Shown one piece after another: positions 14,615 through 33,657 of a stretch of DNA of 64,000 bases; the first letter of the stretch is position 1, and each line of letters starts with the position of its first letter. Where the stretch lies: positions 1 through 64,000 of the forward strand of contig NZ_JXYS01000029.1 of assembly GCF_000949295.1 (NCBI RefSeq), in the 5' to 3' direction. The DNA is from Acidithrix ferrooxidans. GTDB taxonomy: Bacteria; Actinomycetota; Acidimicrobiia; Acidimicrobiales; Acidimicrobiaceae. The notes beneath the pieces are model-generated. The model was not told the DNA's origin. It saw only the letters and a list, made by a program, of their open reading frames with translations, and ran no database searches. A program made the position numbers and the translations under genes.

Positions 14615-14648
14615 AAACCCCCACTTAGAAATTTCTAAGTGGGGGTTT
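14615..14648. terminator. Bidirectional terminator after ftsH
   Basis: A 34-bp perfect palindrome, with arms from AAACCCCCACTTAGAAA meeting at the centre, ends in TTTT on the plus strand and has AAAG before it on the other side. It is 88 bp beyond the ftsH stop. Confidence 0.9.
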
Positions 14649-15898: not shown

Positions 15899-15914
15899 TC
15901 GAACATTTGTTCGT
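15899..15914. promoter_or_regulatory. SOS box (LexA operator) before small gene at 15950
   Basis: TCGAACATTTGTTCGT matches 11 of the 12 fixed bases of the actinobacterial SOS consensus TCGAAC-N4-GTTCGA. A weak -10 candidate, TAGCAA, overlaps its right edge (15914-15919), and the small gene starts 36-50 bases downstream. The geometry resembles that of the dnaE2 operator in this window. Confidence 0.75.
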
Positions 15915-15949
15915 AGCAACTGTCACAGTGGTATGAGATGATTCTTTCC

Positions 15950-16162
15950 ATGAGAGGACAGATTCTACTTATTGAAGATAACGATACCAAGACTAAAACC
16001 ATAGCGCACGAATATGACCATTTGGCCCCTGACTGGAAGCTTGATGAAAGAACACGTAAGCTAGGACTTTGGCAGATCGAGCAAGCACGGCGCCTTTTAA
16101 TTTCTCAAAGCAATAATGATTCAAAGAGCGGATTCAAAGAGCGATGCGCTCGAGTTCGCTGA
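15950..16162 (+). CDS. Small SOS-box-linked protein, function unknown
   Basis: The 70-residue product (MRGQILLIEDND start) has a variable acidic N-half and a charged, helical C-half containing DWKLDERTRKLG and then IEQARRLL. I believe this WxLDExTRxxG...A(R)xxL pattern recurs in small actinobacterial proteins, but I cannot name a function. An in-frame ATG at 15938 would add four residues; neither start has a clear ribosome site. An SOS box ends 36 bases upstream of the first ATG, so induction by DNA damage is inferred. The YdjC-like gene begins 85 bp downstream on the same strand and could be co-transcribed. Confidence 0.6.
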   Translation: MRGQILLIEDNDTKTKTIAHEYDHLAPDWKLDERTRKLGLWQIEQARRLLISQSNNDSKSGFKERCARVR

Positions 16163-27919: not shown

Positions 27920-30900
27920 CTAGTGAAAATCTCTCGACATTGAACCTATGGAGATATCGAGAGGCTCAATATGCTTAGCCACGATATTTACCACTCCGGA
28001 ATAGCTCTCCAAAACTCCCTCGATGATCAATGCATTCGAAAGCCTAACTATCTGTCTGTGGCTATCCCATATATCCCTTGCCACCACCACATTCATCAAT
28101 CCAGTCTCATCTTCAAGGCTGATAAAAGTTACCCCGTTAGCCGTTGCCGGTCGCTGACGATGGGTCACGACTCCTGCGACCTTAATTCGATCTCTATTTC
28201 TACGCGCCACTAGCTCACTTGCCAAAGAGACACCAAAACCAGACAATCGATCCCGAAAAAATGCCATTGGATGACTAGTTGGTGTCATTCCAAATGCGGC
28301 TAAATCCATGTAGCTCCTATCCTTAGAGGTCATCTCCTTTAGTTTTGGAGCCTCGTCTCCAAGTGTCATTCCGGGCAAACCATTCGAGGCACGCCTAGCC
28401 AAAGGCTCTGCTATCCAAATCGCCTGCCGCCTCGTCAAGGTAGCTCCAGCCCCACTTGAGGTAAGTCCCTCGAGGGCCCCTGAGCTAGCTAAAGACTCAA
28501 GTTGCGCTCTATCAATTGACGTCTTGATCACAAGATCTTCAATATTTAGATATGGTGCATTCGCAACTATTGAAGATGCCATGGCTTTGCCTACCTTGGC
28601 TATCTGACCAATTCCTATTCGTAGATTGGGCCCAATCCGACAACGTTCATGGATGTCAGAGATGTAGCCACCTTCGGATTTCGGCCTCTCATTCCCAGAG
28701 GCAACAAAAGAGGGGTCCCTCACGACCGATGGCCCTTCCAAGGTGCATTCAACGCTTGAGAAGTTCACATGTGGACCTAGCACTTCAACACCGTGTCTCT
28801 TAGCATCTTCTATAAGAGTCTCTCTTGACCAAAAACCCATTGGCTGAGAATTAATAATCGAGGCTGCAAATGCAGCAGTATAGAAGTACTTGAACCAAGC
28901 CGAAGCGTAGACCAGATAGGCAAACGACGCCGAATGACTCTCGGGAAACCCAAAGTTGGCAAAGGCCTCCAATTTCGCAAAGATCTCATCTGCCGTCCTC
29001 TCGACGATACCATTTCGAGCCATCCCCTCATAAAAGCGAACTTTGAGTTTTTCCATTCGATCTTTAGATCTCTTGGATCCCATAGCCTGGCGCAACTGGT
29101 CTGCTTCAGATGGGGTAAATCCGGCCACATCGATTGCCATCTGCATGAGTTGCTCTTGAAATAGAGGTACCCCAAGAGTCTTAGAGAGAGATTTCTCTAA
29201 CAATGGATGAAGATAGGTAACCTTCTCTAGACCATTTCGTCGGCGGATATAGGGGTGAACCGAACCACCTTGGATGGGTCCTGGCCTTATCAGAGCCACC
29301 TCAACAACAAGATCATAAAAGTGTCTTGGTCTCAGTCGAGGTAGCGTTGCCATCTGTGCCCGACTCTCGACTTGAAAGACTCCTACTGTATCCGCCTGTG
29401 AGAGCATCTCGTAGACGACATCTTCTTGGGGAATTAGCGCCAAGTCGCACCTTTGCCCGTAGTAACCAAAGACCGTATCCACCATGCGATGAAGGGCCTC
29501 TAGCATGCCCAGACCCAAAAGGTCAAACTTGACCAAACCCGCTATAGCGCAATCATCCTTATCCCATTGGAGTACGGTTCTTCCAGGACGACGAGCCCAC
29601 TCAACCGGGCATACCTCCACAATTGGCCGATCGCAAATCACCATTCCACCGGTATGAATACCCAAATGTCGCGGAGACCGTTCAATCTCAGTGGCGAACT
29701 GCGCAACTCTTGGCGGAAGATCTAAAATCGGCTCCCCTTTTGCATCTCTAACAGCCACCATTTCCGCCAAGGACTTATAGCGGTCCACTTGCTTTGACCA
29801 AGTGTTGATCACAGAGGTTGGATAGCCAAAAGCCCTCGCCACATCTCGTATGGCTGAACGCGATCTATAGGTAATTACATTGCTAACTTGGGCGGCACGG
29901 TCACGACCGTACTTTTCATAGACATACTGAATAACCTCTTCCCGAGCCTCACTTTCAAAGTCAACGTCGATATCTGGAGGGCCATCTCGCTCTGTTGAAA
30001 GAAACCTCTCAAATAGCAACCCCAGCGAGACCGGATCAACATTGGTTATTCCAAGGGCATAGCAAACTGCAGAGTTTGCAGCCGACCCCCTGCCTTGGCA
30101 GTAGATATTAGAGGATCTAGCGAATTGTACAATATCCCAAACAATCAAAAAATATCCACCAAATCCCAACCTTTCAATTATTTTAAGTTCGTACTCAAGC
30201 TGAGCATAGGCCCCCTTGACCCTCTCGTTATCCTTTGGACCATAGCGTTCGGTCGCCCCTTTCATAGTCAGGCTTCTAAGGTAGTACGTCTGAGACTGAC
30301 CATGGGGAACCAAAGAATTAGGCAGAGCCGGAGCGAGCAGTGAAAGATCAAATGCGCATTCAAGGCCAATCTCATAGGCCCGAGAGACCAGCTCTGGATA
30401 TCTACGAAAGCGACGAAGTTGATCCCTCGGAGAACGCAAGTGCGCCATCTGATCCACCGGAAGCCATCCGTCAATTCCATCTAGATTCTTGCCAGCCCTA
30501 ATAGCAGCGGTAACCGAATGCAATTTAGCGTTCTTAGTACTGGCGTAGTGAACGTTATTGCTAGCAACACAATTCAAGTCAAGGTCTGTGGCGATCTTAA
30601 CAAATTCATCGTTACGGGCTTGATCTAGGGGATCTCCATGATCCCAACACTCGATAACAAACCTATCTCTACCAAAGATTTCAGAGAGCTCTTTGGCAAC
30701 TCTTCGAGCAGCCTGGGGACCATTTTCAATCAAAGCGGACGACAAGCCACCCTTGCGACATCCACTAAGTATGACCCAATCCGTATAGTCACAACGAGAC
30801 AGGTCATCAAGAGAAAGATCAAAGACCCCCTTATTTGAATCTTTTAAATGACCTTTGGAAATCACGCGAGAAAGGCTCGCATAGCCACTGGGGTTTTTAG

Positions 30901-31180
30901 CCAAGATAACTAGATGTTCACCTTGAGGATCTTCAATATTGTCTCTTGGCTTTGTGGAGTTTATGGTCAACTCAGCCCCAAAAACCGTCTTGAGAGAGGT
31001 CCCTCGTGCAGCTCCTGCAAAAGCCACGACGCCATAGAGGCCATTGTGATCAGTTATGGCACAGATCGGAAGTTCCGCATCTATCGCTCGTTCAACTATC
31101 TCACTTGGACTTGAAACACCATCCAAAAAACTGAAATTAGAGTGGCAGTGAAGCTCGGCGTATTTTGGGTTATCGTTCAC
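27920..31180 (-). CDS. dnaE2: Error-prone DNA polymerase III alpha subunit DnaE2
   Basis: DnaE2 is the catalytic polymerase of damage-induced mutagenesis, working with ImuA' and ImuB. The N-terminal PHP domain begins YAELHCHSNFSFLDG. The C-family palm carries GRGSAANSAVCY (about residue 364) and the catalytic PDIDVDFES (about 400), followed by finger motifs (LFQEQLMQMA, SDADQ-like SEADQLRQAMG) and a C-terminal OB fold ending in the VVNIVAKHIEPL segment. The length of 1086 is typical of DnaE2 and shorter than DnaE1. The start is GTG, with no ribosome site, seven bases after a -10 box, so the mRNA appears leaderless. An SOS box lies in its promoter. Confidence 0.93.
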   Translation of the reverse strand: MNDNPKYAELHCHSNFSFLDGVSSPSEIVERAIDAELPICAITDHNGLYGVVAFAGAARGTSLKTVFGAELTINSTKPRDNIEDPQGEHLVILAKNPSGYASLSRVISKGHLKDSNKGVFDLSLDDLSRCDYTDWVILSGCRKGGLSSALIENGPQAARRVAKELSEIFGRDRFVIECWDHGDPLDQARNDEFVKIATDLDLNCVASNNVHYASTKNAKLHSVTAAIRAGKNLDGIDGWLPVDQMAHLRSPRDQLRRFRRYPELVSRAYEIGLECAFDLSLLAPALPNSLVPHGQSQTYYLRSLTMKGATERYGPKDNERVKGAYAQLEYELKIIERLGFGGYFLIVWDIVQFARSSNIYCQGRGSAANSAVCYALGITNVDPVSLGLLFERFLSTERDGPPDIDVDFESEAREEVIQYVYEKYGRDRAAQVSNVITYRSRSAIRDVARAFGYPTSVINTWSKQVDRYKSLAEMVAVRDAKGEPILDLPPRVAQFATEIERSPRHLGIHTGGMVICDRPIVEVCPVEWARRPGRTVLQWDKDDCAIAGLVKFDLLGLGMLEALHRMVDTVFGYYGQRCDLALIPQEDVVYEMLSQADTVGVFQVESRAQMATLPRLRPRHFYDLVVEVALIRPGPIQGGSVHPYIRRRNGLEKVTYLHPLLEKSLSKTLGVPLFQEQLMQMAIDVAGFTPSEADQLRQAMGSKRSKDRMEKLKVRFYEGMARNGIVERTADEIFAKLEAFANFGFPESHSASFAYLVYASAWFKYFYTAAFAASIINSQPMGFWSRETLIEDAKRHGVEVLGPHVNFSSVECTLEGPSVVRDPSFVASGNERPKSEGGYISDIHERCRIGPNLRIGIGQIAKVGKAMASSIVANAPYLNIEDLVIKTSIDRAQLESLASSGALEGLTSSGAGATLTRRQAIWIAEPLARRASNGLPGMTLGDEAPKLKEMTSKDRSYMDLAAFGMTPTSHPMAFFRDRLSGFGVSLASELVARRNRDRIKVAGVVTHRQRPATANGVTFISLEDETGLMNVVVARDIWDSHRQIVRLSNALIIEGVLESYSGVVNIVAKHIEPLDISIGSMSRDFH

Positions 31181-31230
31181 AACTAATATTGTAATCGAAC
31201 ATCTGTTCGATTACAATATTAGTTGTGAAC
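31175..31230. promoter_or_regulatory. 56-bp palindromic SOS operator with two mirrored promoters
   Basis: Two perfect 26-bp arms flank ATCT at 31201-31204. The core TCGAACATCTGTTCGA (31195-31210) is a full consensus SOS box. On the minus strand TTGTAA (31216-31211), a 17-base spacer holding the box, and TACAAT (31193-31188) make a promoter. Seven bases later comes the dnaE2 GTG. By symmetry the plus strand has TTGTAA 31189-31194, the same spacer, TACAAT 31212-31217 and a GTG at 31225. LexA bound here would block both. Confidence 0.85.
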
Positions 31231-31306
31231 CCGAACGACCAAGGGTCTCTGGGGCAAATACCTCTCGACCTCAAGGGGCCTAAAGAATCGACCAGCCGTA
31301 AGATGA

Positions 31307-33040
31307 TCAATCATAGATCGCCTCCAGGTACCATCTAGAGTTTTGAATTATCGCCATCATCGCAACTCCGTCATCAGCCACAACTTGGATTCTTGCTAGC
31401 CTTTTAGAGTTTTTGGAGTCCCACCACTTCTCGTTCATCGGCCATGGTCCTATAATCTTTGAGATCTTCTTAGGCCTCTCAAAAAGAGAGTTGATAACTA
31501 TCTCGTGCGGCTCCGAGGTAAACTCCCCCGATCCGCTAACGCTTACCTTTAGGCCATCAACTCCTAATATCTCCATTGGAACCACAGGATCAAAGACCAA
31601 AGATGGTTCAGGACCTGGGACCTGGCCCGGCCAAGGAGAAGAGCTAATCCTCGATGAATCTTGAGGTTCTTCAAAGAGTTGCAACTGCCACTCAATCAAC
31701 TTAAACTTATCTCTCGGAGATCTTCCCGAATTGCTCTTCGGAACGGTAATCGAGCCGTCTCCAAGGCGCGCCTTGGCCCTTTCAATCGCCCTCAAGACCT
31801 GCTCTTTGGGGTGAAAGGCGCAGGAATAGAGATCCAGCTGTACCGAGGGGTTCGAGGTGACATCTAGGACCTCAACCTCACAATAGACCACCCCTGAACT
31901 TGGTGGCTCTCGATTGGTCTTTGAATTAGGCGTAGTCCACGAGTCAAGTTGCCATCGGGACCAACTCAAAAGAAACTGAGTAGATATAGGAATCCCACTG
32001 GTCCACACCCTAGAGAAAGTCTCGGCCGACTCCGTCTCAAAGACCACTCTCACCCTTAGCGGATAGAGTCCTCTGTCGTAAAGGGAGGAAAAAAGAAGAT
32101 CCACATTTGATCTCATGGAAAAGATAATTGTCTCAGCCAAATAGCCCGGAGGATCAAATTCGACTCTAACAGAGTGGCTGGCCTTCACATCCCTCTTTTG
32201 AATCCCACTGCCATCTATCCCATTTCCCAGCTCGAACAGTCGTCTACCCATCGAACCAAATCGTTCGATAAGCAAATTGCGAGGAAGCTCCAGTAGATCG
32301 GAGACCTTATCGATGCCAGAGGATCTCATAGTTTCAAAGTCGTGTCCTTGCCCGAAGACCTCTATAGGGAAACCCGATAGAAACTCCTTGGTGAAACCCA
32401 CCTTGACCACAACGCCAAAGCCAGAGGCGACCTTAGCGCAAAAGAGGCCATCGGCCACGCCGAACAAAAACCAACTACCATAGTCAGAAGTTGACTCCTC
32501 TTCTAAGGTGGAATTTGAGAAAGGTCGATCCGGACTCCGCCTCTTTTTGCTGGGATTCGCATAGACCTCAAAGTCAATCTTTCCCAGCGCCTTTGCGAGC
32601 TTTTTCAAGAGAGACGCCTCACCACCAAAATACTTTGCCGGTCCCTTTAGGTTGAAGCCACACAGACCAGGAGAAAAGACCTCGACCTCAGGGCAAAACT
32701 CCTCTGCGACATTGATCACTCTTTCAAATTGCGAGAGCTCTAAGTCGTAGTCGGAGTCGATCACCAACAACTCCGAGGATTTTTCCAATGTGGCCTCAAT
32801 GCGATCTTCAACTCTTATGCCAAGAGCCCGTGCAGCCAATGTAACCGCCACTACCCTTTTGTTGTCAACCACAATCGCCTGTTGATCTTGAGAGATCGAA
32901 CGTGACAGAAAAGGCCAGTTAGGGACAAAGATGACGAGCATTCGTGGAGTATTTACCTGATCTAACTCTTCGAACAGACTCTGACTGGATCCATAACGCC
33001 TCATAGTCCAACGACCAGTTGCATCTTGGAAGCGGACCAC
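31307..33040 (-). CDS. imuB: ImuB, Y-family polymerase-like mutasome protein
   Basis: ImuB is a catalytically inactive Y-family homologue that bridges DnaE2 to the sliding clamp. The fold starts LVIFVPNWPFLSR near residue 35 and includes ARALGIRVEDRIE (about 90), the polymerase-like VFSPGLCGFNLKGPAKYFGGE region, and HhH-like LLELPRNLLIERFG (about 251). The DDE carboxylates of active Pol IV are not evident. Near residue 455 the sequence WQLQLFEE contains a QLxLF clamp-binding motif, the key interaction element of ImuB. It overlaps imuA by 40 bp and is followed after 126 bp by dnaE2. Confidence 0.88.
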   Translation of the reverse strand: MVRFQDATGRWTMRRYGSSQSLFEELDQVNTPRMLVIFVPNWPFLSRSISQDQQAIVVDNKRVVAVTLAARALGIRVEDRIEATLEKSSELLVIDSDYDLELSQFERVINVAEEFCPEVEVFSPGLCGFNLKGPAKYFGGEASLLKKLAKALGKIDFEVYANPSKKRRSPDRPFSNSTLEEESTSDYGSWFLFGVADGLFCAKVASGFGVVVKVGFTKEFLSGFPIEVFGQGHDFETMRSSGIDKVSDLLELPRNLLIERFGSMGRRLFELGNGIDGSGIQKRDVKASHSVRVEFDPPGYLAETIIFSMRSNVDLLFSSLYDRGLYPLRVRVVFETESAETFSRVWTSGIPISTQFLLSWSRWQLDSWTTPNSKTNREPPSSGVVYCEVEVLDVTSNPSVQLDLYSCAFHPKEQVLRAIERAKARLGDGSITVPKSNSGRSPRDKFKLIEWQLQLFEEPQDSSRISSSPWPGQVPGPEPSLVFDPVVPMEILGVDGLKVSVSGSGEFTSEPHEIVINSLFERPKKISKIIGPWPMNEKWWDSKNSKRLARIQVVADDGVAMMAIIQNSRWYLEAIYD

Positions 33041-33621
33041 TTGTTTGCGCTCACTTCAATCTTCAGCGTTCTAGTTGCAATTGGAGCACTTCCATCGAGT
33101 TGCCAACTCGATCCTTTGGCCAATAAGGAAAAGTCACAACTACCCGGCCAGGTCGCCCCTTTTTTTCCAAGGGTAGAAAGATAGATAAGGATCGACTTTG
33201 TCTTTCTTGTGCGTTCCGAAAGCTTTCGTGCGCGAGTCGCATCAAGCGGAGAAGATAAAACTACAATATCAAAGCCATCTAACATAATGGCGGCGATCTC
33301 AACCGCCTCCGAAGAGGTACACTTCACATTGAGAAGTCTCTTCAAGTCGACGCCATGATCCCTAGCTGCAGCAAAACCAAGATTCGGGCTGCCTACGATA
33401 GCAATCCAGTTCCCCATAGAGCTAGGTCTTGCCAGAAGTCCAAATAAGAGTGATGTAATTCCGCTCCCTAATTCACCGCCAAGCACACCAACCGATCCCC
33501 GACGCAAAGAAGAGTTAGGTAAGATGTCCCTAAACTTATCCAGAACCTCTATCCGCTGATCGATAGCTAAAGTTGTTGGAGCAACAATTGCCGAAAATTT
33601 AGCTAAATCCTGTCTGCCCAT
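33001..33621 (-). CDS. imuA: ImuA-like RecA-fold mutasome protein
   Basis: The 206-residue protein has the RecA/SulA-like fold of ImuA'. The nucleotide loop GGELGSGITSLLFG (about residue 49) lacks the GKT lysine, as expected for the non-ATPase mutasome member. Later segments are NWIAIVGSPNLGFAAARDHGVD and the DIVVLSSPLDATRARKL strand-helix. It starts the imuA-imuB-dnaE2 order. The ATG is six bases after TATAGT, and no ribosome site is present, so a leaderless mRNA is likely. An SOS box overlaps the promoter. Confidence 0.82.
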   Translation of the reverse strand: MGRQDLAKFSAIVAPTTLAIDQRIEVLDKFRDILPNSSLRRGSVGVLGGELGSGITSLLFGLLARPSSMGNWIAIVGSPNLGFAAARDHGVDLKRLLNVKCTSSEAVEIAAIMLDGFDIVVLSSPLDATRARKLSERTRKTKSILIYLSTLGKKGATWPGSCDFSLLAKGSSWQLDGSAPIATRTLKIEVSANKWSASKMQLVVGL

Positions 33622-33625
33622 AATA

Positions 33626-33657
33626 AAACTATATCGAACATATGTTCAATATAGTTT
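33626..33657. promoter_or_regulatory. SOS box of imuA within a near-perfect 32-bp palindrome
   Basis: TCGAACATATGTTCAA at 33634-33649 differs at one position from the SOS consensus. It sits in a 32-bp palindrome with a single mismatch. On the minus strand TATAGT (33633-33628) lies six bases before the imuA ATG. The mirror TATAGT (33650-33655) lies five bases before a plus-strand ATG at 33661 that opens only five codons. Confidence 0.8.

Follow-up and report, generated by a model that had tools for sequence, protein, structure and literature searches.

SOS-induced expression of dnaE2 is established in Streptomyces venezuelae, where the gene's LexA box starts at position -68 relative to the predicted start codon (PMC9380542). 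The locus described here is like the ImuA'-ImuB-DnaE2 mutasome of other Actinobacteria (i.e., Mycobacterium and Streptomyces) in having the same genes and the same class of LexA box. However, in Acidimicrobiaceae the box lies within the spacer between the -35 and -10 elements, about 21 nt from a predicted leaderless start, unlike in S. venezuelae. Symmetric promoters commonly fire both ways in E. coli (PMC12825309), and in the bidirectional promoters characterized by Warman, Grainger and colleagues the transcription start sites are located inside or on either side of a single, shared pseudo-symmetric -10 element. Quasi-palindromes in E. coli become more perfect through template switching (PMC7202029); fork-blocking DNA-protein crosslinks stimulate the process (PMC6357072), which both creates and maintains perfect stems by means of multi-base compensating changes (PMC8794818). 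Template-switch mutations at quasi-palindromes, as described by Ripley, by Lovett, and by Monttinen and Loytynoja, come from RNA genes, reporter genes, and mutational hotspots, whereas the sites considered here are LexA operators.

The window (i.e., the whole stretch of 64,000 nucleotides that was analyzed) belongs to genome G000, which comprises 4,019,867 bases in 183 contigs; all other G-numbers refer to relatives, mostly MAGs. The features of the window on which the analysis is based are the following.

31175..31230, no strand: perfect palindrome of 56 bp with 27-bp arms and centre TC (inverted-repeat search)
31195..31210, no strand: LexA operator (SOS box) TCGAACATCTGTTCGA, 0 mismatches to the actinobacterial consensus
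31211..31216, minus strand: -35-like hexamer TTGTAA of the dnaE2 promoter (promoter scoring)
31188..31193, minus strand: -10 hexamer TACAAT of the dnaE2 promoter (promoter scoring)
27920..31180, minus strand: dnaE2, error-prone DNA polymerase, predicted leaderless GTG at 31180-31178
31189..31194, plus strand: mirror -35-like hexamer TTGTAA (promoter scoring)
31212..31217, plus strand: mirror -10 hexamer TACAAT (promoter scoring)
31225..31338, plus strand: 37-codon frame from the mirrored GTG (31225-31227), probably not a gene
31307..33040, minus strand: imuB, Y-family-like mutasome subunit, upstream of dnaE2
33001..33621, minus strand: imuA', Rv3395c-type, NF058630 above cut-off
33626..33657, no strand: imuA' quasi-palindrome with 16-nt arms and one mismatch, around the LexA box 33634-33649

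The 16-bp actinobacterial LexA consensus TCGAACANNTGTTCGA was matched without mismatch at 31195-31210, a TCGAAC-N4-GTTCGA palindrome in the promoter of the SOS gene dnaE2, and the genome encodes LexA (G000:C1:72829-73455, above the TIGR00498 cut-off). The 17-nt spacer of TTGTAA-17-TACAAT is taken up by the box on both strands, each time with a GTG 7 nt further on; that of the minus strand (31180-31178) opens the 1086-aa DnaE2. An earlier sequence-only reading had described this anatomy correctly, from the two hexamers and the GTG to the full SOS box in the spacer on both strands. It was also right that the arms are perfect, but had given them 26 bp, while the single inverted repeat found by the inverted-repeat search at this switch has arms of 27 nt each (31175-31201 and 31204-31230), 100% complementary and 2 nt apart.

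The distance from box to start codon is nearly constant across the family. Counted from the box centre, the start codon of dnaE2 is at nucleotide 21 in 16 of the 22 Acidimicrobiaceae promoters, at 22 in four, and at 23 in two, the latter being the distance in the window. For imuA', it is at nucleotide 21 in 14 of 17 promoters, a count that leaves out the rows of G001 and G006, at 19 in two, and at 17 in one ambiguous case; the ATG of imuA' in the window is at nucleotide 21 from the centre of the box 33634-33649. In these promoters, the -10 directly follows the LexA box and the start codon falls past the -10 at the conserved spacing (about 6-8 nt) that marks a leaderless promoter, at the point from which RNA polymerase would start transcription. 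A constant distance of this kind is to be expected of a leaderless promoter that has its operator in the spacer, which argues for a leaderless dnaE2 as far as box, -10, and start-codon geometry can indicate. The same near-constancy, together with the mismatch-free box, gives good support to the earlier claims that LexA controls dnaE2 and that its leaderless start has the operator between -35 and -10. LexA bound to the 16-bp box would shut RNA polymerase out; after DNA damage LexA would be lost and, judging from the geometry, a leaderless mRNA would start at or next to the GTG of dnaE2. A conserved, fixed distance from LexA box to start is documented here for an acidophile family, at mutasome promoters that are predicted to be leaderless. 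The site is most likely an ordinary LexA-controlled leaderless promoter that has become extraordinary in shape through template switching.

Chance is excluded as the origin of the 56-bp symmetry because the 19 symmetric pairs outside the 8-bp half-site have a probability of about 3e-12 (per-pair match probability of 0.248) and because no longer near-loop-free palindrome exists in the 831 kb that were searched, a background of partly chosen loci. A mobile or repeated element was rejected as an explanation: the 56-bp sequence is single-copy in the genome, its other matches comprise the LexA-like core only, and the plasmid search returned no match. A known RNA family was rejected as well, as only chance matches to miRNA hairpins were obtained, far below gathering scores. 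Other long near-loop-free palindromes of this genome sit 3' of genes, some of them with T tracts, and the one studied here could by analogy be a bidirectional terminator between imuB and dnaE2. Yet its stem is AT-rich, there is no T tract on either side, the terminator search found no G+C-rich stem followed by a T run at the palindrome, and a conserved LexA promoter is contained within it, which makes this role extremely improbable.

Extended arms were found at a minority of the operators, on separate branches of the tree and with different sequences. Specifically, long arms occur at dnaE2 in G000 (28 positions from the centre), G034 (21), G001 (18) and, imperfectly, G030, and at imuA' in G009 (21), G024 (17) and, imperfectly, G025 and G000. 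On the DnaE2 tree, the four palindromic dnaE2 operators require four changes, in which gain and repeated loss are not fully separable. The outcome that the sequence-only reading had named as refuting, arms that are not conserved outside the box, was observed in most congeners, which are asymmetric there, but not in G001, which carries a palindrome with different arms. The motif TATTNTAATCGAACA and its mirror are common to G000 (N = G) and G001 (N = C), so that one position differs on both arms together. Symmetry at positions 11-22, measured over 49 nonredundant LexA-type sites from the family, was 0.39 versus 0.30 after swapping arms (z 5.2), whereas 51 sites of other Actinobacteria showed no excess at these positions (z 0). 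Folding with swapped left flanks revealed a bimodal distribution of hairpin strength: about one third of the sites stand out strongly, and most of the remainder are close to the swapped-arm expectation. An order-wide scan of 298 genomes with the extended-motif pattern gave matches in genus g1; a wider family of the motif was unsupported, since the matches in G048 and G119 are only partly symmetric and their genes were not identified.

These patterns also bear on the idea that the palindrome is a structural element, which would extrude as a cruciform or whose extended arms would strengthen binding of LexA or RNA polymerase and so tune SOS induction. The single strand does fold strongly as DNA (-28 kcal/mol, z -9.9). 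However, asymmetric sisters keep the same core, and the lack of conservation of arm sequences between species argues against an extended protein motif, so we consider this explanation highly improbable.

We favor, with a probability of roughly two in three, the view that the 56-bp symmetry is the mutational product of template switching and does not reflect the need for a second, backward promoter. The LexA box, already a perfect palindrome, would seed template-switch (quasi-palindrome) mutations, during which the polymerase for a short time synthesizes one flank as a reverse-complement copy of the other, and a single step would turn the flanks into a perfect inverted repeat. The switch would thereby copy the promoter half, here including the GTG, onto the other strand, and the plus-strand promoter and its 37-codon frame would be by-products. 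Like the known mutations of this type, arms would be perfected in one multi-base event with compensating changes. The comparison with sister species covers the sites of G009 (imuA') and G034 (dnaE2). The clearest case is imuA': the G009 site is a perfect palindrome, G005 and G008 share its right arm, box, and collinear outer flanks, and the differences are clustered in the left arm, where they make G009 perfectly symmetric. A similar pattern was observed at dnaE2 of G034 when compared with G033 and G040. The bimodality of hairpin strength likewise fits episodic events better than constant selection.

The indications on the direction of copying at the window's own site conflict. On the one hand, G034 and G009 suggest copying from right to left. 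On the other hand, the left TTGTAATCGAACA of the 56-bp palindrome occurs unchanged in the asymmetric promoters of G002, G011, and G006, and the -10 itself may thus be a copy of the -35 side; the left TTGTAA shared with these promoters suggests copying from left to right. One old palindrome with repeated decay may account for the distribution in place of repeated template switching. Moreover, the ends of several arms coincide or nearly coincide with the start codon, a pattern that selection on promoter or RNA could produce as well, and the relatives compared are mostly MAGs. No report of LexA operators as recurrent template-switch targets was found in the literature searched. The new element is that mutasome LexA operators would be recurrent template-switch sites within a family, as suggested by modest numbers of mostly MAG sequences. 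A bolder version, in which the Acidimicrobiaceae operators are recurrent hotspots at which the error-prone system's own promoters are rewritten again and again, each time in one step, into perfect palindromes and some of the resulting hairpins also silence read-through translation, is possible but doubtful. The family offers a natural series of one regulatory site (asymmetric, quasi-palindromic, and perfectly palindromic), through which the seeding of template switches by palindromic repressor sites, and the rebuilding of promoters in one step, would become testable.

Selection for a bidirectional promoter would be another origin of the mirror half. It would have LexA control two divergent leaderless transcripts, the plus one running antisense to the 3' end of imuB and regulating or encoding something. 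Promoter elements are indeed present on both strands around one symmetric region, both directions score an equal 9/12 against the sigma-70 consensus (plus 31189-31217; minus 31216-31188), and divergent transcripts commonly arise at symmetric promoters in bacteria (PMC12825309). As in the promoters of Warman, Grainger and colleagues, symmetric DNA could engage RNA polymerase in two orientations; unlike in those, two full promoters mirror each other around a repressor site, with predicted starts 45 bp apart. The mirror promoter could fire, and a degree of divergent transcription under LexA is plausible. However, the mirror half is missing in most congeners, the mirrored start codon is present only in G000 and absent at the other palindromes, and the mirrored hexamers of G024 are just 11 nt apart. 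No divergent gene was found in the palindromic cases examined, in which the upstream gene is codirectional (imuB at dnaE2 of G000, G001, and G034; a peroxiredoxin gene at imuA' of G000 and G009), which leaves the mirror promoter without a gene to serve. The plus-strand GTG opens a 37-codon frame to 31338, as the sequence-only reading had stated, but this frame is antisense to imuB only at 31307-31338 (32 nt). That the symmetric operator was selected for divergent transcripts was not supported, given that long arms occur in a minority, on separate branches, and with different sequences. No evidence for selection of the plus transcript emerged, and we regard a selected bidirectional promoter as improbable.

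A better functional rival is provided by the RNA. Read-through RNA from imuB is predicted to form a hairpin of 26 bp that pairs the GTG of dnaE2 and that would be absent from the native leaderless transcript. DnaE2 would then be made only from its own hairpin-free SOS transcript; with the GTG paired only in read-through RNA, the mutagenic polymerase would stay off until its own promoter fires. Folding of the read-through RNA gave -77 kcal/mol versus -50 for shuffles (z -5.9) and placed the GTG within the stem. In addition, no ribosome site precedes dnaE2, and the perfect arms stop at the start codon or close to it in G034, G009, G024, and G001. Protection of this kind is known for the transposase of IS10. 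The proposal of the sequence-only reading that the palindrome hides the GTG upon read-through is structurally sound according to folding, but a requirement for it across the family was not supported: most sister promoters lack a strong hairpin, including imuA' of G008, which stands beside G009 with the same upstream sequence. Insulation by RNA is thus an unlikely reason for the palindrome, although it would be a live rival where the maintenance of the palindrome is concerned. The natural series of sites in the family would also allow a test of whether leaderless SOS genes acquire protection from read-through by such a palindrome.

Other palindromes and LexA-like sites were also observed. Further long near-loop-free palindromes, mostly 3' of genes and terminator-like, are located at 14615-14648 of the window, L238:14028-14078, L239:10852-10891, and L237:14712-14750. 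In G009, a palindrome of non-LexA type with 15-bp arms and a 2-nt centre (L244:18187-18218) precedes a gene start by about 27 nt and is a possible second operator with extended symmetry. The imuA' promoter of G025 (L175, around 2165) has a quasi-palindrome of 28 positions around its LexA box, the outer arms of which contain AGGAGGTGGGTA, placing a ribosome-site-like sequence and its mirror within the arms. A multicopy element was detected at L018 and at about 35 other places in G000, often near contig ends. It carries remnants of an IS1595-like transposase (a weak, sub-threshold Pfam match) and, near one end, a LexA-like core GAACATCTGTTC that in some copies (L008, L012) lies in a palindrome of 14-bp arms. 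Finally, a 74-codon frame (15938-16162) that has no Pfam match is closely preceded by a LexA box with one mismatch (15899-15914 of the window); situated ahead of a YdjC-like gene, the frame is possibly a small SOS gene.
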